Below, one piece after another: positions 1-41,631 of a stretch of 41,631 nt of DNA; position 1 is the first letter of the stretch; every line of letters starts with the position of its first letter. The notes beneath the pieces are model-generated. The model worked only from the letters and a program-made list of their open reading frames with translations. It did not search any database and was not told the DNA's origin. This DNA comes from a virus: IMG/VR virus record IMGVR_UViG_3300047469_000108, positions 1 to 41,631 of that record. One strand, 5' to 3'. The position numbers and the translations under genes are program-made.

Positions 1-104
1 CAAAGAGCTTGCTCACCACCATTGCTACCTACGGACTAGAGCCTCTGGTGCTCTGAAACGGATTCAGCCATCCTCCCCGCCGACAATCTCACCGAGTTTT
101 TTGT

Positions 105-213
105 GCAGGCACAAAAAAGCCGATCTAGATGATCGGCTTAAGTGTCTGATTTTAATCAGAAATTATGGTCGGGACGGAGTGATTCGAACACTCGACCCCT
201 AGCACCCCATGCT
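105..213 (-). repeat. Left attachment site: 3' fragment of tRNA-Pro(GGG) plus its terminator
   Basis: Read on the minus strand, 213 to 166 gives the 3' half of a tRNA: anticodon loop ATGGGGT (anticodon GGG), T arm with TTCGAAT loop, acceptor strand and CCA. Similarity to a tRNA stops in the 5' side of the anticodon stem, so this is a displaced fragment and not a gene. Bases 105-171 recur with four substitutions or fewer at 41565-41631. This is the usual footprint of integration into the 3' end of a tRNA gene. Bases left of about 166 are probably host DNA. Confidence 0.88.
113..139 (-). terminator. tRNA-Pro terminator, left copy
   Basis: A 9-bp stem (AAGCCGATC paired with GATCGGCTT, loop 126-130) is followed on the minus strand by a run of U. 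It lies about 27 nt past the CCA end of the tRNA fragment, so it is the original terminator of the tRNA gene. A second copy lies at 41573-41599. Confidence 0.8.
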
Positions 214-4948: not shown

Positions 4949-5268
4949 TAATACCACCTCATCACTACGAGCCTCATTGTGCTATTAGAAACCATCGAAG
5001 CTGCATATCCGTTTATGAAGTTTCTAACGTATATAACACCGTCTGAAACTTCTGTTTCGAGTTGGCGATCAGAATCTGCTGAAGGGCCAATTGGGAGTAC
5101 CACAGCCGTTGTGTTGCCTGGATTACAACCAGGCAACAAAAATTGCTGAGTTGATTTTCCTTGCCCTGCAAAAGACACAACGGCCGACAGCACTATTCGC
5201 CAAGTGGCTGTGTCAGTGTTGAACTGTAAAACGCCATCAGCACCCCACATCCGTACGCCGTAACTCAT
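4948..5268 (-). CDS. Small tail protein downstream of J
   Basis: A 106-residue protein whose ATG overlaps the J stop codon (ATGA). It starts MSYGVRMWGADGVLQFNTDTATW, a pattern seen in small proteins after J in several siphoviruses; residues 8-70 look like a beta-sandwich. Coupled translation with J and with the next gene points to a structural or assembly role at the tail tip. It may belong to a DUF described only from phage tails, but I cannot confirm which. It shows no cleavage or membrane signal. Confidence 0.65.
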   Translation of the reverse strand: MSYGVRMWGADGVLQFNTDTATWRIVLSAVVSFAGQGKSTQQFLLPGCNPGNTTAVVLPIGPSADSDRQLETEVSDGVIYVRNFINGYAASMVSNSTMRLVVMRWY

Positions 5269-14500: not shown

Positions 14501-14992
14501 ATCTGCCGAAGCGGAGTTGGTGACCAGAAGGAAGCTGAAACTATCCATCACATCCAGCGCTTGGCTGGTGTTGTATCCCATCGACTTGAGGCTGTCGGAT
14601 GTGCGGATATAAAGCTCTTGCGCTTCGGCCAGTGGGCGGTATGTCCGCTTTGCGGTATCGAGCAAGCGCTGCTGCACCAGATCGTATTCGCCCACGCTAA
14701 CGGTCGCCATGCCGATACGATCTGACATCTGGCCGTATGAGTCGGCCGCTTCAATAATCTTGCCAATACCGGCTGCGCCAATAGCGGCTGCCAGCGCGCC
14801 CTTGATCAGGCCAGAAGCATGTTGTGCACGCTCGCCCACACGATCAAACGCCGAATCTACACGTTCAAGGCTTTTATCAATACGTCCGGAGGTTTGCGCA
14901 ACACTGGAGTCTGCACGCGCCATCTCTTGACGCAACTGGGCAGTGGTCGCCTCAATGCGGACGAGCATCCCCTGTACGTCGGTGTCGGCCAT
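11564..14992 (-). CDS. H: Tape measure protein
   Basis: An 1142-residue protein that sets tail length and is ejected ahead of the DNA. Residues 1-60 are helical and charged (MVRIEATTAQLRQEMARADSS). About 75-300 match the tape-measure core (SYGQMSDRIGMATVSV). Hydrophobic A/G-rich stretches occur near 290-310 and 400-420, and again near 1000-1060. A lysine- and glutamate-rich coiled coil spans about 650-850. The rule of roughly 0.15 nm per residue suggests a tail near 170 nm. The start has GGAGA upstream and a UUCG hairpin 22 nt ahead. Confidence 0.95.
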   Translation of the reverse strand: MADTDVQGMLVRIEATTAQLRQEMARADSSVAQTSGRIDKSLERVDSAFDRVGERAQHASGLIKGALAAAIGAAGIGKIIEAADSYGQMSDRIGMATVSVGEYDLVQQRLLDTAKRTYRPLAEAQELYIRTSDSLKSMGYNTSQALDVMDSFSFLLVTNSASADKASSAIDAYSKALQTGKVEADGWQSILAAMPTVVDTLAKSTAKSSEEIRSLGAQGKLGLDTLTEGLQKASKANGELADGMSIAVRDAVQNLSNSFGVYVGRLNEATDFTGTLGKAISLVGDNFETIADVAIMAAVAALARYGALAATSAATATYSAFKDVAARKAQASAVLLVAQAEQQKAQTSVFLAEKEAIAARGTAVQTQMSLQLAEARLIETRATNAVAAAQVGVSRAGVGLVGMLGGPMGVAALAIGAAAAFLTLHDNTSVLEEKLGDLNDPLDKLTERFNKLNRATQSVTLRELRASISDTEKDLSAAAGSIAFEFQASLTNAGLAGASGFMGGIAPLPAEFQSAMDIVNKAVSDSSKGQAVDWKAVADQVRQIPGVTEEMAQSIETGQIKVSDLTGILDKQRQTLAELTGETDANTAARGKNNAAVAAADQVGQKYLEQLQKQLGAAQDKTALEAANRFIAENTDLTEGMIVAIRSAASAKDAQKAADDAATKAAKKNASESESAAKKQLKDFESTEEGYKRQIELINTTGDKQRDATEVQKLSFELQEGKLGKLSEAQKKKLLGMAAELDALNKLKKANEDDLKLTAFKNAQALTTQTTKDGFDQELAGVGMGDKTRDRMRADLAMRQKYAADVTALNEQLNTDQLTPELYAKQTQVLQDELNKRLLAQENFYAATDEQQTNWMNGVNEAWANYADAARDYSAQAMDITNTALSEATGGLGTFFSDVASGAEDAGDAMGDMLGNFAKSMLKALGDMAAQWLIYQGVQMLVGKTTQASAAGALGANASAMSLTAGLNAYASTAAIPIIGPAAAPAAMATAMAVTGPLASAVGMTALAGMAHDGIDSVPEDGSWFLQKGERVTTAQTSAKLDAMLSRIDNGLGGTQPQAQIGVGSLESIGNGRASMVGTGIEAAPSGPTQIVFNAPINVQAQPGMSDQEAARQGQAMSAGLETQFGKFLDTEMRQGGRLWRR

Positions 14993-25215: not shown

Positions 25216-25244
25216 AATCTATAGATCGACCCCGGCCCTGTCAA
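25216..25244 (-). promoter_or_regulatory. Late promoter (pR'-like)
   Basis: A perfect -35 box TTGACA (25244-25239), 17-bp spacer and TAGATT (25221-25216). The -35 box contains the TGA stop codon of Q. Position immediately after Q and before a leader with terminator is that of lambda pR'. Confidence 0.8.
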
Positions 25245-25594
25245 GCGGCCTCGCGACGAAAATCCAAAGCCCCATCGATCCAAGCGATTCCAGCCTTCCA
25301 AAGTTGTCGCGTCTTCTCTTCGCCGAAGCCCATCTTCTTGCCGACGTCGATCAGCGCTTTGTCACGCGCGGTGTAGTACTTCATCAAGACCTGGCCGCAT
25401 TCCGGGTACCGCTTCAGCAAGCGGCCCATCAGGCCATCAATCATCAGTGCATCGTCGTCGGTGATCATCGGCGTGCGCAGCGTGTTCTCGCGGGATGCAC
25501 AGCACGAAACGCCGGAGCCCAGCACAACCCAGCGGCCCCAATGCTCGAGCAGATCCTCGGCGGTACGTTCGGTGAAACTCTTTGTTCTCGCCAT
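25241..25594 (-). CDS. Q: Antitermination protein Q
   Basis: A 117-residue protein of the phage antitermination Q family (PF06530 type, judged from memory): FTERTAEDLLEHWGRWV at residues 7-23, ITDDDALMIDGLMGRLLKRYP near 44-64, and a C-terminal HTH-like segment ALIDVGKKMGFGEEKTRQLWKAGIAWIDGAL. The protein modifies RNA polymerase at the late promoter, which overlaps its own stop codon, so that the late operon is read through its terminators. Last gene of the early right operon; GGGGA lies before the start. Confidence 0.88.
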   Translation of the reverse strand: MARTKSFTERTAEDLLEHWGRWVVLGSGVSCCASRENTLRTPMITDDDALMIDGLMGRLLKRYPECGQVLMKYYTARDKALIDVGKKMGFGEEKTRQLWKAGIAWIDGALDFRREAA

Positions 25595-25596
25595 GA

Positions 25597-25911
25597 TCAG
25601 TCCCCTTTATAGGCCGAGCCACCAGGCCCGCGAGTATTGGTTTGCTGGTAAAGGTCAGCCATGGTCAATGGCTCATGCGGCAACGTTGCGATTTGACGCT
25701 CGTGGCGGATCAGAATGCCGAGCTGAACGATCAGGTCATCCACTGGTAGCGGCTCCAGCGTCTCGGCATGTACCAATCCGGAAGCGTGGCAACCGATGCA
25801 ATCGAGGTGATGAAACACACCCTTGATCACCCCTTTCCCAGCGCAGGACGGGCAGTCAGTCAGAGGAATTTGGCGGCGCACTAAGGCGGGGCCATGCTGC
25901 TTTTTATCCAT
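25597..25911 (-). CDS. Small zinc-finger protein
   Basis: A 104-residue protein with two CxxC-like pairs, DCPSCAGKG (about 19-27) and DCIGCHASG (about 37-45), spaced like a DnaJ-type zinc ribbon. The rest is soluble and helical (LPVDDLIVQLGILIRHERQIA). It lies between the internal recombinase gene and Q with GAGG before the start. Such proteins are frequent in the nin-like region of Pseudomonas phages but their role is unknown; nucleic-acid or protein binding would fit. Confidence 0.75.
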   Translation of the reverse strand: MDKKQHGPALVRRQIPLTDCPSCAGKGVIKGVFHHLDCIGCHASGLVHAETLEPLPVDDLIVQLGILIRHERQIATLPHEPLTMADLYQQTNTRGPGGSAYKGD

Positions 25912-25913
25912 TT

Positions 25914-27194
25914 TTAAACCTCGCCTATGGTTGTTTCTTCAATGGCCTTGCAGGCCTTATGTTCTGTGGCTTGCAGCGGATTAGCGGAATCTTCAAATCT
26001 AACGCCGGTCAATCCGTGAATCGCTGCAAACCCTTTCTGATCTAGATGCGCGTGCCACTGTTCGAGGGCATCACGCTTGCGGCTCATCACGTCCGATTGG
26101 ATGTACACCTTCACGTTGTGGCCCATCGCGTGGTTGATCAGCAGCTCACCGATCAGATGGTCAACGCCGAGATCTGCCCAGCCGGTACGGGCCACCTTGC
26201 GAAGGTCGTGACTCGTCCACTCGCCTTGCCCCAGCCGACGGAACACTGCGCAGCCTTGAGCCTCACCCAGTGCTTTGCCGTTTCGAGCCGGAAACAGGAA
26301 TTGGCCGTCATAGCCTCGACCTTGCTGACCTTCCCGGTACCGAACCAGCAGCGTGCAGACCTGCTCTGTCAGGGGCAGGTGATGCTCGACACCGGTTTTG
26401 GTGTTCTCGGCCGGGATGAACCACTCACGCTCGGCCAGGCTGATGTGCGACCAACGCGCCATGCGGGTTTCGCCGATTCGCGTGCCGTGGCAGAGCATCA
26501 TCAGCGCGAGCATCGAATCCAGCGGTGCACTGGCCATGACCTCGTCCAGTTGATCCAGGAGCCCTTCCAATTGAACGCCGCGCAGCCGGGACGGTTTGAT
26601 GCCGACCTTCGCCTTGGAAAAGTCGTTGAACCTGATCGCCGCCATTGGGTTGGCCGTGATCAAGCCCAACTTGGTCGCCTGACGGAATGCCAGGGCCAGC
26701 AACTGGAACACGGAACGCACGTAGTCGATGGATATCGTTTCCTGCAGCGGCCACATCAGCAGGTTATCGAGTGCGGCCTTGTCCAGGCTGATCAGTGCCA
26801 GATCACCAAGGCGCGGCTTGAGATGGCACTTGATCATCGAGGCGCCGGTGTTCTTGCGCTTGGTCGAGAGGTTGCGGTCGCGCGACATGCGATCGGCGAA
26901 CCAGTCGAGCAGCTCGCCCACGGTGTCCCACTTCGACAGACTCGCGCCTTCGCCAGCGGCCAGGCGCAGACGAATTGACGGCAGCGCCGCGACGACCTGC
27001 TTGTGGGATAGCTCGGGAAACGTGCCGATTGGGTTCCATTTGCGCTTCAGCACCAGGTACCACGAACCGCCGGTGCGGGCCTTGTTGAAGCGTAGGTACA
27101 GGCCTTTGTTTTCGAGGTCGCGAACGTCTTGCACGCTGCCGGCCGCCTGACGCTTGAGTTCGGCTTCGGTGATCTTCACCGCGGCAGTACTCAT
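25914..27194 (-). CDS. Second tyrosine recombinase, in the nin-like region
   Basis: A 426-residue P4-type tyrosine recombinase. All active-site residues are visible: Arg239 (CHGTRIGE), Lys266 (TKTG), His329 and Arg332 (SHDLRK), His355 and Tyr364 (NHAMGHNVKVY). The first 85 residues resemble the arm-binding domain of P4-type integrases and residues 90-185 the core-binding domain. It is coupled by an ATGA overlap to early lytic genes and has no att site beside it. It is unrelated in detail to the integrase at the prophage end. Its job may be in replication or dimer resolution rather than integration; this is inference. Confidence 0.88.
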   Translation of the reverse strand: MSTAAVKITEAELKRQAAGSVQDVRDLENKGLYLRFNKARTGGSWYLVLKRKWNPIGTFPELSHKQVVAALPSIRLRLAAGEGASLSKWDTVGELLDWFADRMSRDRNLSTKRKNTGASMIKCHLKPRLGDLALISLDKAALDNLLMWPLQETISIDYVRSVFQLLALAFRQATKLGLITANPMAAIRFNDFSKAKVGIKPSRLRGVQLEGLLDQLDEVMASAPLDSMLALMMLCHGTRIGETRMARWSHISLAEREWFIPAENTKTGVEHHLPLTEQVCTLLVRYREGQQGRGYDGQFLFPARNGKALGEAQGCAVFRRLGQGEWTSHDLRKVARTGWADLGVDHLIGELLINHAMGHNVKVYIQSDVMSRKRDALEQWHAHLDQKGFAAIHGLTGVRFEDSANPLQATEHKACKAIEETTIGEV

Positions 27195-27565
27195 GGTTTC
27201 GCCTCTGTGCAGAAATCAAACGCCCAGCAACCGCTACCCCAAGTCCAAAATGCCCAAGGCCTTGCAAACGATATCCAGCGGCCGAGGACGTCGCGGAAAC
27301 CGTGTCGACTGCCGCAATGCCCGCACACTCGGCGGTGGGAAAACGAGTTTTCAAACTTGGCGTCAAACGGGCAGTCATGAACCTTCAGGCAATCCACGCA
27401 GATCACGACATTTTGGAACGGGCCGGCCGAGGCCTTCAGTTCGTCCATTTGTCGCAGTAAACGATCAAAGTTCGGAGTTGTGAGACTTGCTGCATCCATG
27501 TTTCGTGGAAATCCAATCCGCTTCAGGGCTTCTGACTGAATGTGCTGATTGTCTACGAGCTTCAT
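27191..27565 (-). CDS. Hypothetical protein with zinc-ribbon-like cysteines
   Basis: A 124-residue protein with ATGA overlaps at both ends, so it is translated with VRR-NUC upstream and the recombinase downstream. The N-terminal 60 residues are helical (NFDRLLRQMDELKAS). CVDC at about 55-58 and CGHCG at about 80-84 may bind zinc. The C-terminus is unusually rich in tryptophan and phenylalanine (FWTWGSGCWAFDF). Family not recognised. Strict coupling suggests a partner of nuclease or recombinase. Confidence 0.7.
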   Translation of the reverse strand: MKLVDNQHIQSEALKRIGFPRNMDAASLTTPNFDRLLRQMDELKASAGPFQNVVICVDCLKVHDCPFDAKFENSFSHRRVCGHCGSRHGFRDVLGRWISFARPWAFWTWGSGCWAFDFCTEAKP

Positions 27566-27993
27566 GCAGCCACCACTGTAGGTGCGAGTTGAAGGTAGGC
27601 GCGGATCTGCTCCATCGCGTCGAAGTGTCCACGGCAAACGATGGCGAGATAGCCCTGATCGTTCAGCTTGCGTAGGCGCTCTTGCTGGTTCGGCGATACC
27701 GCTGCATCGTTCGGCGGCGTCGCCTTGAATTCGATGTACAGGCCGAAGTACCCGCCGCGGGCCATGCTCAACACCAGATCAGGAATGCCGGCCTTCACGC
27801 CTTGAGCTTTGAGCTTGGCTGCGACCGCCTTGACCCGGTGTCCGCCGTTCGGGACGTGGTAGATCAGGTCAAACACCGCCGGGCAGCACAGCTCAAGCTC
27901 ACGCATCAGCGCGGCCTGCTCGAGTCCTTCACGATCGACCGGCTTGGCCCGCCCGGTTCTCGGCTTGAACAGTTTCGGAATGATCGGCTTCAT
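27562..27993 (-). CDS. VRR-NUC domain nuclease
   Basis: A 143-residue standalone VRR-NUC protein of the PD-(D/E)XK superfamily. The signature parts are present: an early Glu (EGLEQAALMRELE), VPNGGHR near 47-53, GIPDLVLSMARGGYFGLYIEFKA near 68-90 with catalytic Asp and E-x-K, and QQERLRKLNDQGYLA near 103-117. Such phage enzymes cut branched DNA including Holliday junctions. Here it occupies the place where other lambdoid phages carry RusA or NinG resolvases. Confidence 0.92.
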   Translation of the reverse strand: MKPIIPKLFKPRTGRAKPVDREGLEQAALMRELELCCPAVFDLIYHVPNGGHRVKAVAAKLKAQGVKAGIPDLVLSMARGGYFGLYIEFKATPPNDAAVSPNQQERLRKLNDQGYLAIVCRGHFDAMEQIRAYLQLAPTVVAA

Positions 27994-28103
27994 CTGCGAT
28001 CACCCCGTGCTTTTCGCTGTGCGCGATGAACCAGACCGCAAATTTCTCGAAGCACCCAGCTGCCAATGAGCAACAGAACGATATAGGACATCGGGTCTAT
28101 CAT
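27990..28103 (-). CDS. 37-aa single-pass membrane protein
   Basis: A 37-residue frame starting ATG 28103 after an AAGGGGG sequence. It has one hydrophobic segment (SYIVLLLIGSWVL, residues 6-18) and a strongly basic C-terminus (RAQRKARGDRR), so the tail should face the cytoplasm. It has ATGA overlaps with both the YbcO-like gene before and the VRR-NUC gene after, which is strong evidence that it is translated. Function unknown. Confidence 0.65.
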   Translation of the reverse strand: MIDPMSYIVLLLIGSWVLREICGLVHRAQRKARGDRR

Positions 28104-28402
28104 GCGGCCCCCTTCACGGTGAGTATTCCAGCCCGGATGAGGGCTTCATGGGTTTCGGCGATGGCGCGGGGCATGTCCTGCCAATCAATCTCGCCGGCGG
28201 CGCGGCCATCGATCACGTCGTGACAGGTTGCGCAGGCATACACCGCAACGGTGTCGAACCCCTTCATGCCCATGCCCTTCTGGCCGCACGGCAGATGCGC
28301 AAGAACGGTGGTTTCCGGGTTGTGATTGCAAATGCCCGGTATACGGACGGTGCACTCTTGGCCGTTGGCCGAGGCGCGGAGTTTCTTTGAGGTCATTCGC
28401 AT
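28100..28402 (-). CDS. ybcO: YbcO-like nuclease (DUF1364)
   Basis: A 100-residue DUF1364 protein related to YbcO of the DLP12 prophage. It has the CTVRIPGICNHNPETTVLAHLP block (about 17-38) and the YACATCHDVIDGR block (about 54-66) with the metal-binding cysteines and histidines of an HNH-like fold. It lies in the nin-like region, where lambda relatives carry recombination nucleases. Two in-frame ATG codons, 28402 and 28396, are possible starts; the second gives an ATGA overlap with the preceding stop. Confidence 0.9.
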   Translation of the reverse strand: MRMTSKKLRASANGQECTVRIPGICNHNPETTVLAHLPCGQKGMGMKGFDTVAVYACATCHDVIDGRAAGEIDWQDMPRAIAETHEALIRAGILTVKGAA

Positions 28403-28602
28403 GCAGGCTTACCCGTGATGACATCGACGACTTCGTAGGTACCTGGCCACATCCACGCGCCGTAGCGCTTCGCCATCGCCGAATCAGCGAACAACGCCAG
28501 CGCATGATCCGGAGGTGAACTCAAGTCGACCTTGAACGAGCAGCAAAACACCGCGAAACGGTAGGTATCGATCTCAGGGACAGCCAGACGCCGATCAGCC
28601 AT
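28393..28602 (-). CDS. Hypothetical early protein (69 aa)
   Basis: A 69-residue protein starting MADRRLAVPEIDTYRFAVF with TTGGAGG 5 nt upstream. It overlaps the P-like gene by 8 bp and the YbcO-like gene by up to 10 bp. CCSFKVDLSSPPDHALALFADSAMAKRYG in the middle suggests a compact alpha/beta fold. The conserved-looking block and strict coupling support a real gene of unknown function. Confidence 0.75.
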   Translation of the reverse strand: MADRRLAVPEIDTYRFAVFCCSFKVDLSSPPDHALALFADSAMAKRYGAWMWPGTYEVVDVITGKPACE

Positions 28603-29278
28603 GCGAACCTCCAAGCGCACTGCGCAGTTTTGCCAAGGCATCCTTTCCGACTTCAGGTGTTACCTTCGCCGCGGCACGAGCTGGTAATGCCTTCGGCATA
28701 GCTTGCAGCGGGAGCCCTGACAGTAAGCGGCGAATGGTGATCGTGTAGTTGCGCTCAAACAGCTTCAGGCTTAGCGCGGTGTCGAGCTTGTTAAGGCTCT
28801 CAAAACCGCACTCTTTGGCCGTATGCCATACCGCGTCATGCGACCACTGACCCTGCCCAGCCATACTCGGGTGAGCGTTGCGGCAGGCTTCCCGGTGCGC
28901 GGTCGCGAGCGGCGGAAGGCCAAGCATTTCGGGAGTTGGTTTGCACCATTCGATAAACTGTCCCGGGCTTGGGATGAAGTCGCCGGACTGCTTTCGCACC
29001 TGTGCCATCCCGAAATCGATCTGGCCCTGAGTACTGATTCCTTCCTCGAGGAATGCCTGGTACCACTGCCGCTTCGACGCCTGATAGGTTTCCTTGTCTG
29101 GCCACGCTTGGCGCCACGCCGAACGGATGGATCGAAGCTCCCCGAACAGGTTGTTGATGGCCGACACCAAAGTGCTACTGGCGTCGCTGACCACAGGTGA
29201 AGCATCCTCGGCGGCGATGAATTCGCCTGACTGAGCTTTTTCCCACAAACCGTTGGCAACCACAGAAACGGCCTTCAT
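28595..29278 (-). CDS. P: Replication protein P-like helicase loader
   Basis: A 227-residue protein of the lambda P family. Residues about 38-140 carry the family pattern (VSAINNLFGELRSIRSAWRQAWPD, then SGDFIPSPGQFIEWCKPTPEMLGLP), followed by a helical C-terminus. It would bring the host DnaB helicase to the phage origin with the O-like protein. ATG 29278 overlaps the O stop codon (ATGA), which rules out a longer upstream frame. Confidence 0.88.
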   Translation of the reverse strand: MKAVSVVANGLWEKAQSGEFIAAEDASPVVSDASSTLVSAINNLFGELRSIRSAWRQAWPDKETYQASKRQWYQAFLEEGISTQGQIDFGMAQVRKQSGDFIPSPGQFIEWCKPTPEMLGLPPLATAHREACRNAHPSMAGQGQWSHDAVWHTAKECGFESLNKLDTALSLKLFERNYTITIRRLLSGLPLQAMPKALPARAAAKVTPEVGKDALAKLRSALGGSHG

Positions 29279-30024
29279 GGTTTCACCCCGCTCTGCCATC
29301 CAGTGTCGTTGTCGTCGAAATCGGTAACGGAGGCATTCTTCGGCTTGAATTGAGCGACGTTGGTCGCCGCTGAGCGGGCCTTGTCGTTGCGCACCCACTT
29401 GACCAGCATCTGCACCCATTCGGCCTGAGTGTTAACCTGCCCGCGGGGTTCGTAGTGCGCAGTGAACGCGCGGCGCACTTCATCGGTGAACATGGTGAGT
29501 TCCACGCCAGAATGGGTGGCATAGGTCTTCAGCAACTTGGCGTCAGGTTGCCAGTCGAGGGTCATTTCGCTTGGCATGCGAGGGTCGACTGGCTCATGCG
29601 CAGAGAGAGGTTCTTTATTCTTCTCTTTCTCTTCTTTAGGTAACGCCCCGCTAACGTTCGCAGCGTTAGTTTTACCGTTACTGGCTTTGTGATTGGCCAC
29701 CCGCTTTGCGGTGAGAAGCCTGTTTTTAGCGGTCTTGCCGTTATGGCGCTCGAAGTGAGGAAGACTGATTACCCCGCCCTCCTCAATCATCCATGCGACA
29801 GACTTCATGTATTCACAGAAACCGGTAACGCCAACCAAGCGGTCGAGTAACTTTTTGCTAACGCTCGGAGCGTTACCATTCTCTGTTTGTTGATCGAACC
29901 AACCCCATACACGCATCAATTTGCCGACAACCGCATCCGGGTCGATATCCGCCAAGTCAGCGATCTGGCAGACCTCAGGTTTGTCCAGGGTGGTGAGTTC
30001 AAACTTGATCCAATCGCCGGCCAT
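29275..30024 (-). CDS. O: Replication initiator, O-like
   Basis: A 249-residue protein in the O position, upstream of P. The N-terminal 105 residues look like a winged-helix replisome-organiser domain (WIKFELTTLDKPEVCQIADLADI start; RLVGVTGFCEYMKSVAWMIEEGG near 64-86). A charged linker (KEEKEKNKE near 130-138) is followed by a C-terminal domain with SEMTLDWQPDAKLLKTYA, which resembles DnaT-like ssDNA-binding domains. ATG 30024 overlaps the preceding stop codon. Palindromic repeats and a purine tract inside the gene form a candidate origin. Confidence 0.82.
   Translation of the reverse strand: MAGDWIKFELTTLDKPEVCQIADLADIDPDAVVGKLMRVWGWFDQQTENGNAPSVSKKLLDRLVGVTGFCEYMKSVAWMIEEGGVISLPHFERHNGKTAKNRLLTAKRVANHKASNGKTNAANVSGALPKEEKEKNKEPLSAHEPVDPRMPSEMTLDWQPDAKLLKTYATHSGVELTMFTDEVRRAFTAHYEPRGQVNTQAEWVQMLVKWVRNDKARSAATNVAQFKPKNASVTDFDDNDTGWQSGVKP
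29606..29875 (-). other. Candidate replication origin inside the O gene
   Basis: Two 17-bp palindromic repeats differ at two positions: TAACGTTCGCAGCGTTA (29652-29668) and TAACGCTCGGAGCGTTA (29859-29875). Further half sites (CGTTA/TAACG) flank the first, and a purine-rich tract follows it on the minus strand (about 29606-29640). Lambda's origin has the same layout inside O: palindromic iterons, then an AT/purine-rich stretch. Only two full repeats are seen here. Confidence 0.5.
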
Positions 30025-30788
30025 TACACGCGCCCCTTCAACTGATACTGCGCCCACAGCCCGGCAACCCACTCGACGCCCTTTGGCGTAAACCGAGCCT
30101 GACTGAAAGCATGACCGTTTGATTCGCTGGTTCCGGTTTTCACTTCGAAACGCCCGGCAGCCTGATGATGCTGATAAGGACTCAAAACGCCCCCGAGGTA
30201 GTACATCACCCGAGAATCGAGAAGCATTTGGCGGAATTGACGCTCGCTGGCATTCAGGAGCTTTGCGACTTGGCGAAAGCCCATCGAGCCTGACGCCTGA
30301 ACGTAGTGATCGACGAATGCAGCCTTAGGGGCGGCAATAGCAAGCGCGTGCTGGGCTGCCTGCTGGAGCTCGAACTGTTCAGCCCAGGCTCGAGCAGCCG
30401 CGGCAGGATTTGAAAAATCGGGTAGCGAAGCGAGGACGCGAGGCCCTTCGAGTTCCTTGAGCTTTTGCAAAACTGAGCGACGAACTGCTTTCGACTCTCG
30501 CATGCCCACGAGCATGCATTGATCGAGGGTCAGGTCATAACTGGCCATGTCGACCCGGCTCTGGGGGTGTGCAACAAATTTGCACTCCCCCAATTCTTCG
30601 CCGAGTTCGTCTTGAACTCGGATGATGAATTGGTCATTCCTGACTTTTGGCTCGCCAGCGTGAGCGCGGGCTTCGTTCACCATGTCGCGCAGATCGATGC
30701 TGGAAACAGTACGCGACACAGTTTCGGAACCATGAAAACATGTCGCGACATTTTCGGGTGTATTGCTGGGGTTGGGTGAACTGTGCAT
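30024..30788 (-). CDS. Rha/KilAC-type antirepressor
   Basis: A 254-residue protein. Residues about 25-115 resemble Rha regulators (VSSIDLRDMVNEARAHAG, DMASYDLTLDQCMLVGM). Residues 140-250 match the KilAC/ANT C-terminal domain (MGFRQVAKLLNASERQFRQMLL, FTPKGVEWVAGLW). Proteins of this type counter the phage repressor or interfere with host functions after infection. A strong hairpin terminator lies in front, so its expression may need antitermination. GGAG precedes the start. Confidence 0.85.
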   Translation of the reverse strand: MHSSPNPSNTPENVATCFHGSETVSRTVSSIDLRDMVNEARAHAGEPKVRNDQFIIRVQDELGEELGECKFVAHPQSRVDMASYDLTLDQCMLVGMRESKAVRRSVLQKLKELEGPRVLASLPDFSNPAAAARAWAEQFELQQAAQHALAIAAPKAAFVDHYVQASGSMGFRQVAKLLNASERQFRQMLLDSRVMYYLGGVLSPYQHHQAAGRFEVKTGTSESNGHAFSQARFTPKGVEWVAGLWAQYQLKGRV

Positions 30789-34973: not shown

Positions 34974-35501
34974 TCATGAGCTAAGTTTTATTTCCTGTAC
35001 AAATTTAACCTCAATAGTTGCCCCCAACTCCGTCATCGACTTCAAGCGTTCCATTAGCTCAGCGCGCGATTGTTCTACACGCTCTTCAGCGCTGGCTTGG
35101 TGGGCCTTCAAATCGATACCGCCCAGTCCAGTTTCTTCATTCGCAAACAGCCGCACATAGTCACGGTTCATATCCAACGAAGTATGCAGACTTTCTACCT
35201 CAAAGCATCCTTCATAGAATTCAAGAAGCTGCTTCGAAAGCGCGTCACTCACATAAATAGCCGATGACCTAAAAATCATTCCGTACGGAGCCAGATCTTG
35301 CTGTTTCAGCAGCAAGCCCCTCCCGCTAAGCAGTCTACGAACTTCAAAGAAAGCTCTGTGCAGCTCTTTCTGATACTGGTGAATCGAAATGTTATTTGCT
35401 CGCTTCGCCTGGGAGACCGATCTCCAGGAGAAAAATGCAGCAACGGCCGAAACAACAAATGCAGAACCAGCGATGACGTTCGCCCAAGTTGCAGAATCCA
35501 A
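34974..35501 (-). CDS. Membrane-anchored protein of unknown function
   Basis: A 175-residue protein. The preferred start is TTG 35501, with AAGGAG 6 nt upstream; a longer frame to 35606 overlaps the yejK start. One transmembrane segment lies at residues 6-26 ([21 protein letters not shown]), followed by a charged cytoplasmic region ([20 protein letters not shown]) and a helical domain with [20 protein letters not shown]-terminal coiled coil follows. It runs against the early operon and is divergent from yejK. The layout fits a lysogen-expressed accessory gene such as superinfection exclusion or abortive infection. Homology is not recognised. Confidence 0.7.
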
Positions 35502-35604
35502 TTTCGTCTCCTTGATCCGGCTCCATGCCGGGCCGAACACAAATACCCCACTTCTACGAATCACGCCAGCCGGCGAGGCAGGCGTATGCCCCGAGGAAAT
35601 CTTC

Positions 35605-36612
35605 ATGCCTGTACTCCACAGCGTAATTCACAAGATCGACAAAAAGCCTGACGGCACCCCGGCTGTTTTATTCCTCGGCAGTTCCGAGCAGGTCGAAAGC
35701 CAAGCCCGTGACGATCTGATGAATCAGTTCAACGAAAACTACAACGCCATCAGCGGTAAGGGCTGGGGATTCTTTCACGCCGAATCTGGCGCGTTCCCTC
35801 TCAGCGGCTGGCTCGCCAAGTACTTAGCTGGCGGCTCTGACTTCCTCGATTTCAGCATCATCGCCGTCGAGCACCTGACCCGATTGATGGAGGAATCGAA
35901 CTTGACTACGGGCGGGCACGCCCTCTTTTGTCACTACCGACAAGGTCTCACCGACTATCTGATCATTGCCTTGGTGCAAGAAACGGAAGCGGTGACCATG
36001 ACCGAAGAACTCAGCCTGATGACGGTCAAGCGCTTGGATCTGGATCACATCCGCCTGGCTTCGCGCATCAACATCAGCGAGTGGCAGAGCAATCCGCAAT
36101 CAAAGCAGTACATCTCATTCATCAAGGGCAAACAGGGGCGCAAGCTGAACGACTACTTTCGTGATTTCATCGGATGTCAGGAAGGGATCGACGGGCCCGG
36201 CGAAACTCGGACGCTGCTCAAGGCCTTCAGCGACTTCGTTGAGAGTGAGGATCTGGGCGAAGAATCTGCACGCGAGAAGACCCAAACCCTCGTCAGTTAC
36301 TCGATGGCCCAAGCCAAGCTGGGCGAGCCGATCACCATCGACGAACTGTCGGAGCTTATTAACGAAGATCAGCCAAAAGCCTTCGCCGACTTTATCAAGG
36401 CCGCTGACTACGGACTTTCAGACACCCTGCCGCCGGACAAGAAGACCCTCAACAAATTTCGGCGGTTCACTGGCCGCGCCGAGGGGTTGTCGATCAGCTT
36501 CGAACAGCACCTGCTCGGGTCGAAGATCGAGTTCGACGAAGCCGGCGGCACGCTGACTCTGCGTGGCCTGCCAACCCAACTTACAGAACAGCTCAAGCGA
36601 GCAACTGCCTGA
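35605..36612 (+). CDS. yejK: Nucleoid-associated protein, YejK/NdpA family
   Basis: A 335-residue protein of the YejK (NdpA, 37-kDa nucleoid-associated) family. [20 protein letters not shown] at the start, then [32 protein letters not shown] (about 39-70) and [26 protein letters not shown] (about 167-192) match the family. Host YejK binds nucleoid DNA; a phage copy may protect or compact phage DNA or disturb the host nucleoid. Start ATG 35605 matches the family N-terminus and excludes a 72-codon extension that overlaps the opposite gene. Such copies occur in several Pseudomonas phages. Confidence 0.93.
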
Positions 36613-40211: not shown

Positions 40212-40424
40212 ATGAGAAAGGAACTGATCAAGATCAGTGAGTTTCAGCGCCGGCGCTGGGGCGAGAACGGCACGCCGCCCTGCTCCCAAGCGATCCGCAA
40301 CTACATCCGAAACGGCCAGGTGCCCGGCGAGCAGATCGGGAAACTCTGGTACGTTGATTGGACTGCGTTCAGTCGATCGGACGGCAACGATCTGGTCGCG
40401 ATGGTATTGAAAGGAGCTGCATGA
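40212..40424 (+). CDS. xis: Excisionase
   Basis: A 70-residue basic protein directly before and overlapping the integrase gene by 4 bp. The pattern LIKISEFQRRRWGENGTPPC.AIRNYIRNGQVPGEQIGKLWYVDWTAF resembles the winged-helix fold of lambda-type excisionases. It would bind and bend the attachment-site arm and drive integrase toward excision. GGAG precedes its ATG. Confidence 0.85.
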   Translation: MRKELIKISEFQRRRWGENGTPPCSQAIRNYIRNGQVPGEQIGKLWYVDWTAFSRSDGNDLVAMVLKGAA

Positions 40425-41536
40425 TGGTCCCACGGCCGCGCAACAAGGCGAACAAGAGCCTCCCGCAGAACCTGTATTTCGATTCGCGGCGCTCGACCTA
40501 TCGCTACCGCCGGCCTACCGACGGTAAGTGGTTCCAATTCGGCGCCGACCGAATCAAAGCGATCGATGCTGCGAAGCAGTTGAATTTGGAATTTATGCGA
40601 GGCGCCGACCTGATCGGCGCGGTGATGGGCAGCACATCCGAATCGTTCGCCGGTTTCATGGATACCTACGAGCGCGACGTGCTGCCACCACGGGAGCTGG
40701 CGAAAGGAACATTGGGCCTGTACGCCGTGCACTTCCGCCGCTTCCGAAAACAATTCGAAGGCAAAGCGATCGACCAGATCACGATCCGCATGATCGCGGA
40801 GATGCTGGACGCCCTCACGCCTCGCACTGCAAACCAGTGCCGCGCACTGCTAATCGACATCTTCAACCACGCAGCGGCCAAGGGCCTGTGCCCGGACAAC
40901 CCGGCGGGCAGCACCATCAACCGAATTGAAAAGAAGCAACGCAAGCGGCACACGGTCGAAGGCCTGAAAGCCATCCGGGAAAAGTCGCCGTTCTGGCTGC
41001 AGAACGCAATTGACCTCGCACTGATCACTGCGCAGCGCCGGACGGACATCTTGAATATGAGGTTCGATGGTGTTCGGGAAGGTTTTTTATATGTGGTGCA
41101 GCAGAAGACGGCGAAAGCCAGCGACGCGGCGTGGATCCGGTTCAAAGTGACCGAAGAACTCCAGGCGGTGATCAGCCGGTGTCGGGATGACATCGTTTCG
41201 CCCTACCTGATTCACCGTCGGCCAGACCGAAAAAAGCAGAAGCAGGCGCAGACGAAAGACCACTGGACTCAGGTCGAAGAACGATATTTGACGCGAGCCT
41301 TCAAAGAGGCCCGGGAAGCGGCGGGATGCTATAAGGGATGGAAAGAGGAGGAAATGCCGGGCTTCCACGAAGTGCGAGCACTGTCGCTGCACCTGTATCA
41401 GAAAGTCGGAAAGGATGGTCAGAAGATCGCCGGCCACGCCAGCGAAACCATGACCAAAAACTACCAGAGGGATCACGCGGAAATCGTCTGGTCGGAGGCA
41501 ATTCCAGACCTGAATATCAGCGAAATTACCGGGTAG
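40421..41536 (+). CDS. int: Lambda-type integrase
   Basis: A 371-residue tyrosine recombinase. Residues 1-58 are a lambda-type arm-binding domain (SLPQNLYFDSRRSTYRYRRP); 70-170 is the core-binding domain. The catalytic set is complete: Arg206, Lys229, His316, Arg319, His339 and Tyr348 (GHASETMTKNY). Starts ATG 40421 and 40424 are adjacent; the second is better spaced from AAGGAG. The stop codon lies in the first of three arm-type repeats. It integrates the phage into tRNA-Pro(GGG). Confidence 0.96.
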   Translation: MMVPRPRNKANKSLPQNLYFDSRRSTYRYRRPTDGKWFQFGADRIKAIDAAKQLNLEFMRGADLIGAVMGSTSESFAGFMDTYERDVLPPRELAKGTLGLYAVHFRRFRKQFEGKAIDQITIRMIAEMLDALTPRTANQCRALLIDIFNHAAAKGLCPDNPAGSTINRIEKKQRKRHTVEGLKAIREKSPFWLQNAIDLALITAQRRTDILNMRFDGVREGFLYVVQQKTAKASDAAWIRFKVTEELQAVISRCRDDIVSPYLIHRRPDRKKQKQAQTKDHWTQVEERYLTRAFKEAREAAGCYKGWKEEEMPGFHEVRALSLHLYQKVGKDGQKIAGHASETMTKNYQRDHAEIVWSEAIPDLNISEITG

Positions 41537-41567
41537 TTTTGCGCAAGTTTTGCGCGAGTTTTGCGCA
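41535..41567 (+). repeat. Three tandem 11-bp repeats, likely integrase arm sites
   Basis: AGTTTTGCGCA, AGTTTTGCGCG, AGTTTTGCGCA in direct tandem, beginning inside the int stop codon. They lie between int and the right attachment site, where arm-type integrase or Xis sites are expected. A core copy lies at 329-338 in the left arm. Confidence 0.75.
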
Positions 41568-41631
41568 GGCACAAAAAAGCCGATCTAGATGATCGGCTTA
41601 AGTGTCTGATTTTACTCAGGAATGATGGTCG
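41565..41631 (-). repeat. Right attachment site, cut by the window end
   Basis: Repeats 105-171 with few changes: terminator, spacer and the first bases of the tRNA 3' end (CCA and discriminator side at 41626-41631). The intact tRNA-Pro(GGG) should continue to the right, with its 3' end and terminator supplied by the phage. Confidence 0.85.
41573..41599 (-). terminator. tRNA-Pro terminator, right (phage-borne) copy
   Basis: The same 9-bp stem AAGCCGATC/GATCGGCTT with a U run on the minus strand. It would end the tRNA-Pro transcript that comes from beyond the window and also shields int from it. Confidence 0.75.

Follow-up and report, generated by a model that had tools for sequence, protein, structure and literature searches.

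A second tyrosine recombinase in the lytic operon of an integrating phage: a probable multimer-resolution enzyme of apparent phage-plasmid descent

We show that a 41,631-nucleotide stretch of Pseudomonas prophage DNA (IMG/VR virus record IMGVR_UViG_3300047469_000108, positions 1 to 41,631; hereafter the window) encodes, besides the integrase of the prophage, a second and intact tyrosine recombinase, and that this enzyme belongs to a distinct family occupying one and the same position across hundreds of phage contigs rather than being a stray island gene. The most likely role of the recombinase is to join and separate copies of the phage genome, not to insert the phage into its host, and the best reading of the data assigns it a build like that of lambda integrase and a job like that of Cre, namely multimer resolution. 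We also report that the 3' end of the recombinase gene (25914-26024) is its most silent-site-conserved DNA, a feature new to this analysis.

Results

The recombinase gene (25914..27194, minus strand) begins with ATG and has 426 codons, and its product matches the Pfam Phage_integrase profile (PF00589) over residues 203-368 with an E-value of 4e-17, in agreement with the initial annotation of a second, complete tyrosine recombinase. The catalytic domain, placed by Pfam and alignments at residues 203-386 (26037..26588, minus strand), carries R239, K266, H329, R332, H355 and Y364, the R-K-H-R-H/W-Y set that defines the superfamily. This active site had been read correctly from the single sequence: all six residues are invariant in 14 diverse relatives (set A1), and across 62 aligned relatives R239, K266, H329, R332 and Y364 are invariant and H355 nearly so. 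Residues 1-85 (26940..27194, minus strand) resemble an arm-DNA-binding domain and are modelled as a beta-sheet with a helix; in the window copy their match to Arm-DNA-bind_3 (E=0.012) does not reach the cut-off, while the best relative scores 3e-5, which lends the earlier label of P4-type weak support. An AlphaFold2 model built from 62 sequences has a mean pLDDT of 84 and a pTM of 0.51, with a disordered C-terminal tail from residue 398 (398-426, pLDDT <50). Foldseek searches with this model returned full-length lambda integrase (1z1b, E=6e-10) first, followed by Tn1549 integrase, Xer enzymes and Cre, and the predicted fold is that of a strand-exchange recombinase; a phmmer search of the PDB with the single protein gave no match.

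The family is widespread, with 517 confirmed loci in IMG/VR; 231 loci came from species-level genomes, of which 80 were kept, all from Pseudomonas. Searches with tblastn found close relatives in the Pseudomonas phages PseuP_224, VW-6S, Solano and Hali, each of which has a separately placed integrase as well, and further relatives in Vibrio, Aliivibrio and Pseudomonas phages with ParA. Full-length plasmid relatives of 33-45% identity were found on records between 17 and 98 kb long, for the most part small circular phage-plasmids, from Pseudomonas, Delftia, Halomonas, Vibrio, Photobacterium, Edwardsiella, Aeromonas and Shewanella; below this set, identity among the plasmid matches drops to ~26%. 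Larger plasmids with a relative are annotated with RepB or the nucleoid-associated protein YejK. We also observed a small ParA/RepA plasmid (17.3 kb) of Vibrio sp. J502 that combines a family recombinase with genes for a tape-measure protein and an S49 peptidase and resembles the satellite-plasmids described in PMC13230959.

Distribution of the family follows lifestyle. When 67 whole records were searched for Phage_integrase (PF00589) and a ParA-type ATPase (PF13614), 26 of the 32 ParA-positive records had no other kind of tyrosine recombinase, whereas 31 of the 35 ParA-negative records had another (Fisher p=5e-9, for records that are interrelated and not randomly sampled). The ParA-bearing phage-plasmids come from Pseudomonas, Delftia, Halomonas, Vibrio and Aeromonas, and the family member is usually their only tyrosine recombinase; the window, in contrast, lacks ParA and has another integrase. 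Exceptions are four ParA-negative records with only this recombinase (G003, G012, G033 and D453), as well as Shewanella W24 and phage X29, which have two recombinases and no ParA. In a maximum-likelihood tree, whose root is unsure owing to long outgroup branches, the integrating Pseudomonas copies all group in a single clade (100/94) surrounded by copies from phage-plasmids and plasmids, and five terminal integrases lie apart from the family. From these sequence relationships we infer that the enzyme is of phage-plasmid origin and was kept when the lineage adopted chromosomal integration. Two records with the family are themselves multimeric: pHN2 is a head-to-tail phage-plasmid dimer of 2 x 41.2 kb (99.97%), real or an assembly artefact, and a second contig (G029) joins two 38 kb phage-plasmids, ~88% identical, as a heterodimer or, again, an assembly artefact.

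A DNA element, delimited by silent-site scans and a consensus, occupies codons 391-426 (25914..26024, minus strand), where the gene ends. Across 66 dereplicated recombinase genes the mean silent-site identity is 0.68, but codons 391-426 reach 0.90-0.995 and the last nine codons 0.995; with 137 genes the element stands at 0.959 against a mean of 0.608, ranking first of 418 windows. Its consensus consists of four GATTS words spaced 8 bp apart in two pairs, together with a near-invariant core, AACCATAGGCGAGGTTTAA (25914..25932, minus strand), of the form AACC-N8-GGTT. In some relatives AACCATAGGCGAGGTTT persists out of frame, the stop codon of the gene falling within or ahead of it, and this, coupled with the disorder of the protein tail, argues that the constraint is on the nucleic acid; no conserved RNA fold was found at the element (-0.32 kcal/mol). 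The element is attached to the recombinase, directly following it in 200 of the 202 occurrences with enough flank, and is present once per locus and genome, a search for a second copy having found none. We consider it, as AACCATAGGCGAGGTT plus GATTS words, a candidate recombination site, a reading confounded by translation signals, since conservation and boundary mapping would also fit the core being the start region of the next gene, with its ribosome-binding site. Conservation of a translation start may be part of the explanation but fails as the whole of it, as the 3' ends of seven other genes in the same operon have silent-site identities of 0.46-0.83, compared with 0.96 here. Monocistronic plasmid copies of the recombinase have no evident counterpart of the candidate site, and a second, phage-plasmid clade has its own conserved AATTAATCATATAAGAGGATTT after the stop, with no mosaic boundary there.

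Such a boundary does exist in the Pseudomonas phages. Flanks were compared in 383 phage pairs whose recombinase genes share at least 90% identity: homology covers the 200 nt upstream in 313 pairs and the downstream stretch in 154. Where downstream homology ends, it mostly does so 1-12 nt past the element, and the first gene downstream is highly variable. So sharp an edge fits a recombination site, with the ribosome-binding site of the next gene as a confounder. The earlier view that nothing lies beside the gene therefore needs qualifying: no gene-specific flanking repeats were seen, but the gene's own 3' end is a conserved element and a mosaic boundary. Without such repeats, and with a stable clade and place, a recent island insertion finds no support either.

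The boundary gives some substance to the initial suggestion of exchange between phages. In this scenario the enzyme would recombine the DNA of co-infecting phages at the conserved 3' site, and hybrids that combine the recombinase half of one phage with the late half of the other would arise when the heterodimers are packaged at cos; the heterodimer of two different phage-plasmids, real or an assembly artefact, would suit this. However, ordinary mosaicism of the nin region also yields sharp boundaries, a second copy of the site is absent, a phage-plasmid clade exists without the boundary, and exchange may be a by-product of resolution. We therefore regard exchange as unlikely to be the main role, if the most credible of the alternatives. 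A self-contained system, in which a lambda-integrase-like recombinase with its own target in its own 3' end fuses and resolves co-infecting genomes and so creates the mosaic junction in Pseudomonas phages, seems similarly unlikely.

Other candidate sites fared less well than the element. The initial annotation had proposed looking for a conserved short dyad in relatives, but no loxP/dif-like site (inverted 9-13 bp arms, 6-8 bp spacer) common to the phages was found beyond terminator, operator, cosB and iteron candidates, and the dyad search left only AACC-N8-GGTT at the gene end, which is not a clear dyad. The sequence GCCTGTCAACTAA-GCCGGG-TTAGTTGACAGGC, a perfect 13-6-13 dyad (14835-14866 in locus L022) with GTTGACA repeats upstream, occurs in 19 loci; it was rejected because it directly precedes the terminase small subunit and is absent from the window, and is probably cosB. 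Dyads of the GGATATCC type in phage-plasmids adjoin parA in PARCL1pr and pPL-38ph, with two copies in the latter, and are probably partition sites, while the upstream TGCACCCC repeats look like origin iterons. A window dyad at 5109-5141 is absent from the relatives compared, a 26-mer conservation scan over +/-10 kb returned terminators and coding starts only, and no integron-like second site flanks the variable genes. Separately, the dyad AAATCCTGTACAATGTACAGGATTT occurs nowhere but next to the recombinase: a V. campbellii and a V. cholerae plasmid (L358 and L363) have a copy on each side of the gene, in direct orientation, and Photobacterium (L359) has one; it may be a recombination site, an operator or a terminator.

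Integration of the prophage itself can be assigned elsewhere. As had been noted, a lambda-type integrase with a lambda-type arm domain, identified by profile, lies at the right end (40358..41536, plus strand), and a repeat search placed a 73-bp direct repeat of 94.5% identity and tRNA-like sequence at 99..171 on the left and at 41559..41631 on the right, adjoining this gene. Because the att repeats adjoin 40358..41536, that gene is the prophage integrase and 25914-27194, which is next to neither attL nor attR, is something else. The latter could still be a spare P4-like integrase, or a module swap, that lets the phage or a phage-plasmid relative integrate at another chromosomal site. Its putative P4-like arm domain and lambda integrase as top fold match would suit such a function, and automated annotation labels the family genes integrases; but the ends of prophages adjoin the other integrase, the family occupies a mid-genome position in the lytic operon, and in complete genomes its members are plasmids. 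We judge this improbable.

The recombinase sits in the window between the replication genes and Q, in an order that runs, all on the minus strand and by profile match unless stated, from an O-like replication initiation protein (29275..30072) through a lambda P-like helicase loader (28595..29419), a YbcO-type nuclease (28100..28402), a VRR-NUC nuclease (27562..27993) and an ORF taken from the ORF list (27191..27637) to the recombinase, phrog_5085 (25597..25911; annotation and neighbour counts) and the antitermination protein Q (25241..25594). The recombinase start codon shares ATGA (27191-27194) with the stop of the upstream ORF, which supports the proposed translational coupling if that ORF is real. 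VRR-NUC is present, as reported, and searches of the window for NinG, RusA and ParA found none. In 111 dereplicated Pseudomonas loci, replication genes (O, P or DnaB) are upstream in 98 and phrog_5085, a small CxxC protein resembling a DnaJ zinc finger, is 3' of the recombinase in 105; Q is downstream in 57, although divergent Q may escape detection, and VRR-NUC is upstream in 38. These counts make the constant context a position after replication and before phrog_5085/Q, and not one always between VRR-NUC and Q, the arrangement that the initial annotation had proposed testing. They also leave the idea of a processing role in place of RusA or NinG without support, the nuclease being no constant neighbour and the fold being one for strand exchange. 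Elsewhere in the window, 35389-36612 (plus strand) encodes an NdpA/YejK nucleoid-associated protein (PF04245) that matches the DS1_1 anti-phage model below threshold; YejK is also close to the recombinase on two Vibrio plasmids.

Position directly after the replication genes, with a constant CxxC partner, would also suit a factor that alters replication topology through recombination between copies during theta replication, either amplifying the genome in the manner of Flp or processing concatemers. Amplification of the Flp type requires a pair of inverted sites, whereas one candidate site copy per genome was seen, and such a function is doubtful. That the gene is a relic, a resolvase inherited from phage-plasmids that does nothing in integrating phages today, is very improbable: its nested clade would fit, but hundreds of divergent copies retain the open frame and the catalytic residues, which implies selection.

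Discussion

We consider it somewhat more probable than all else that the recombinase is a site-specific enzyme of phage-plasmid descent, kept in the lytic operon, that interconverts monomers and multimers of circular phage DNA. Several lines of evidence point to multimer resolution: relatives as distant as about 40% identity retain the catalytic residues; integration falls to a separate integrase, beside att repeats; ParA goes with the family being the only kind of tyrosine recombinase (67 records); relatives occur on circular phage-plasmids and on larger RepB/YejK plasmids; the integrating-phage copies are one clade among phage-plasmid copies; the gene follows replication genes; the fold is nearest to lambda integrase, then Tn1549 integrase, Xer and Cre; and the silent-site-conserved element is always attached to the gene. 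The pHN2 homodimer and the heterodimer contig, both carrying the family, suggest that the substrate occurs, unless they are assembly artefacts. Among the three roles initially guessed, dimer resolution is thus the best supported, both in ParA phage-plasmids, where this is the sole recombinase, and in phages with a dedicated integrase elsewhere, while exchange keeps a place as a possibility and processing does not.

We infer a catalytically active enzyme whose substrate, site and benefit to the phage would be as follows. The ancestral job of the family may have been multimer resolution on phage-plasmids and plasmids. In the window phage, the recombinase would be an early product of the lytic operon, encoded right behind the replication genes, and would act on circular or concatemeric genomes with one site each, recombination between site copies turning multimers into monomers and back without integrating the phage. 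The likeliest site is the element at its own 3' end, with the core at 25914-25932 and possible arm-type words upstream. In the plasmid state of relatives, resolution would supply ParA with monomers to segregate; in integrating phages the same reaction could maintain circular monomers for theta replication or join the genomes of two phages. Some observations speak against resolution. The pHN2 dimer, in a strain with intact genes, suggests inefficient resolution in some cases or a faulty assembly; unlike Cre and Xer, the enzyme apparently contains an arm-binding domain; the candidate site runs into the region where the next gene starts; and the need for resolution in lytic growth of a cos-type phage is not obvious.

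Phage-plasmids have been described as typically without integrases (PMC12977533), and the paper on PseuP_222/224 lists a "site-specific phage integrase" in the PseuP_224 replication cluster without comment (PMC10305613). Our literature search, whose coverage excluded most subscription journals, found no described second recombinase or resolvase of this family. A single recombinase family that marks phage-plasmids of several genera and persists in the lytic operon of integrating relatives connects the two lifestyles in a way that can be tested. It also represents a likely means of multimer resolution in small phage-plasmids and supplies a defined junction for asking whether a phage-coded site-specific enzyme can drive phage mosaicism.

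The family bears parallels with several known systems. Like integron integrases, the recombinase adjoins a variable gene region, but a second site flanking the variable genes is absent. It shares catalytic-domain similarity with XerC/XerD, XerH and XerA, and, on the reading favoured here, multimer resolution as a job, but is a single, phage-borne enzyme with an extra N-terminal domain, and a dif site was not seen. The circular Vibrio phage-plasmid genus TG34/LG49 has a low-copy circular plasmid state with partition genes (PMC13230959); it resembles the Vibrio phages found here with ParA and a family recombinase, K303 being only a putative LG49 member, although that paper does not discuss the recombinase. 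Lambda integrase and P4-type enzymes (Arm-DNA-bind_3) apparently share the three-domain build, with 1z1b the top full-length fold match, yet here the gene is not at the prophage end, has no att site beside it and leaves integration to a second enzyme. Finally, Cre resolves multimers of the phage-plasmid P1 (PMC10879196), and the likeness extends to a tyrosine recombinase on a phage-plasmid beside partition genes and to Cre being among the fold matches. In contrast to Cre/loxP, no loxP-like dyad was found in relatives, the recombinase seems to have an arm-type N-terminal domain, and its family also lives in integrating phages, inside the lytic operon.
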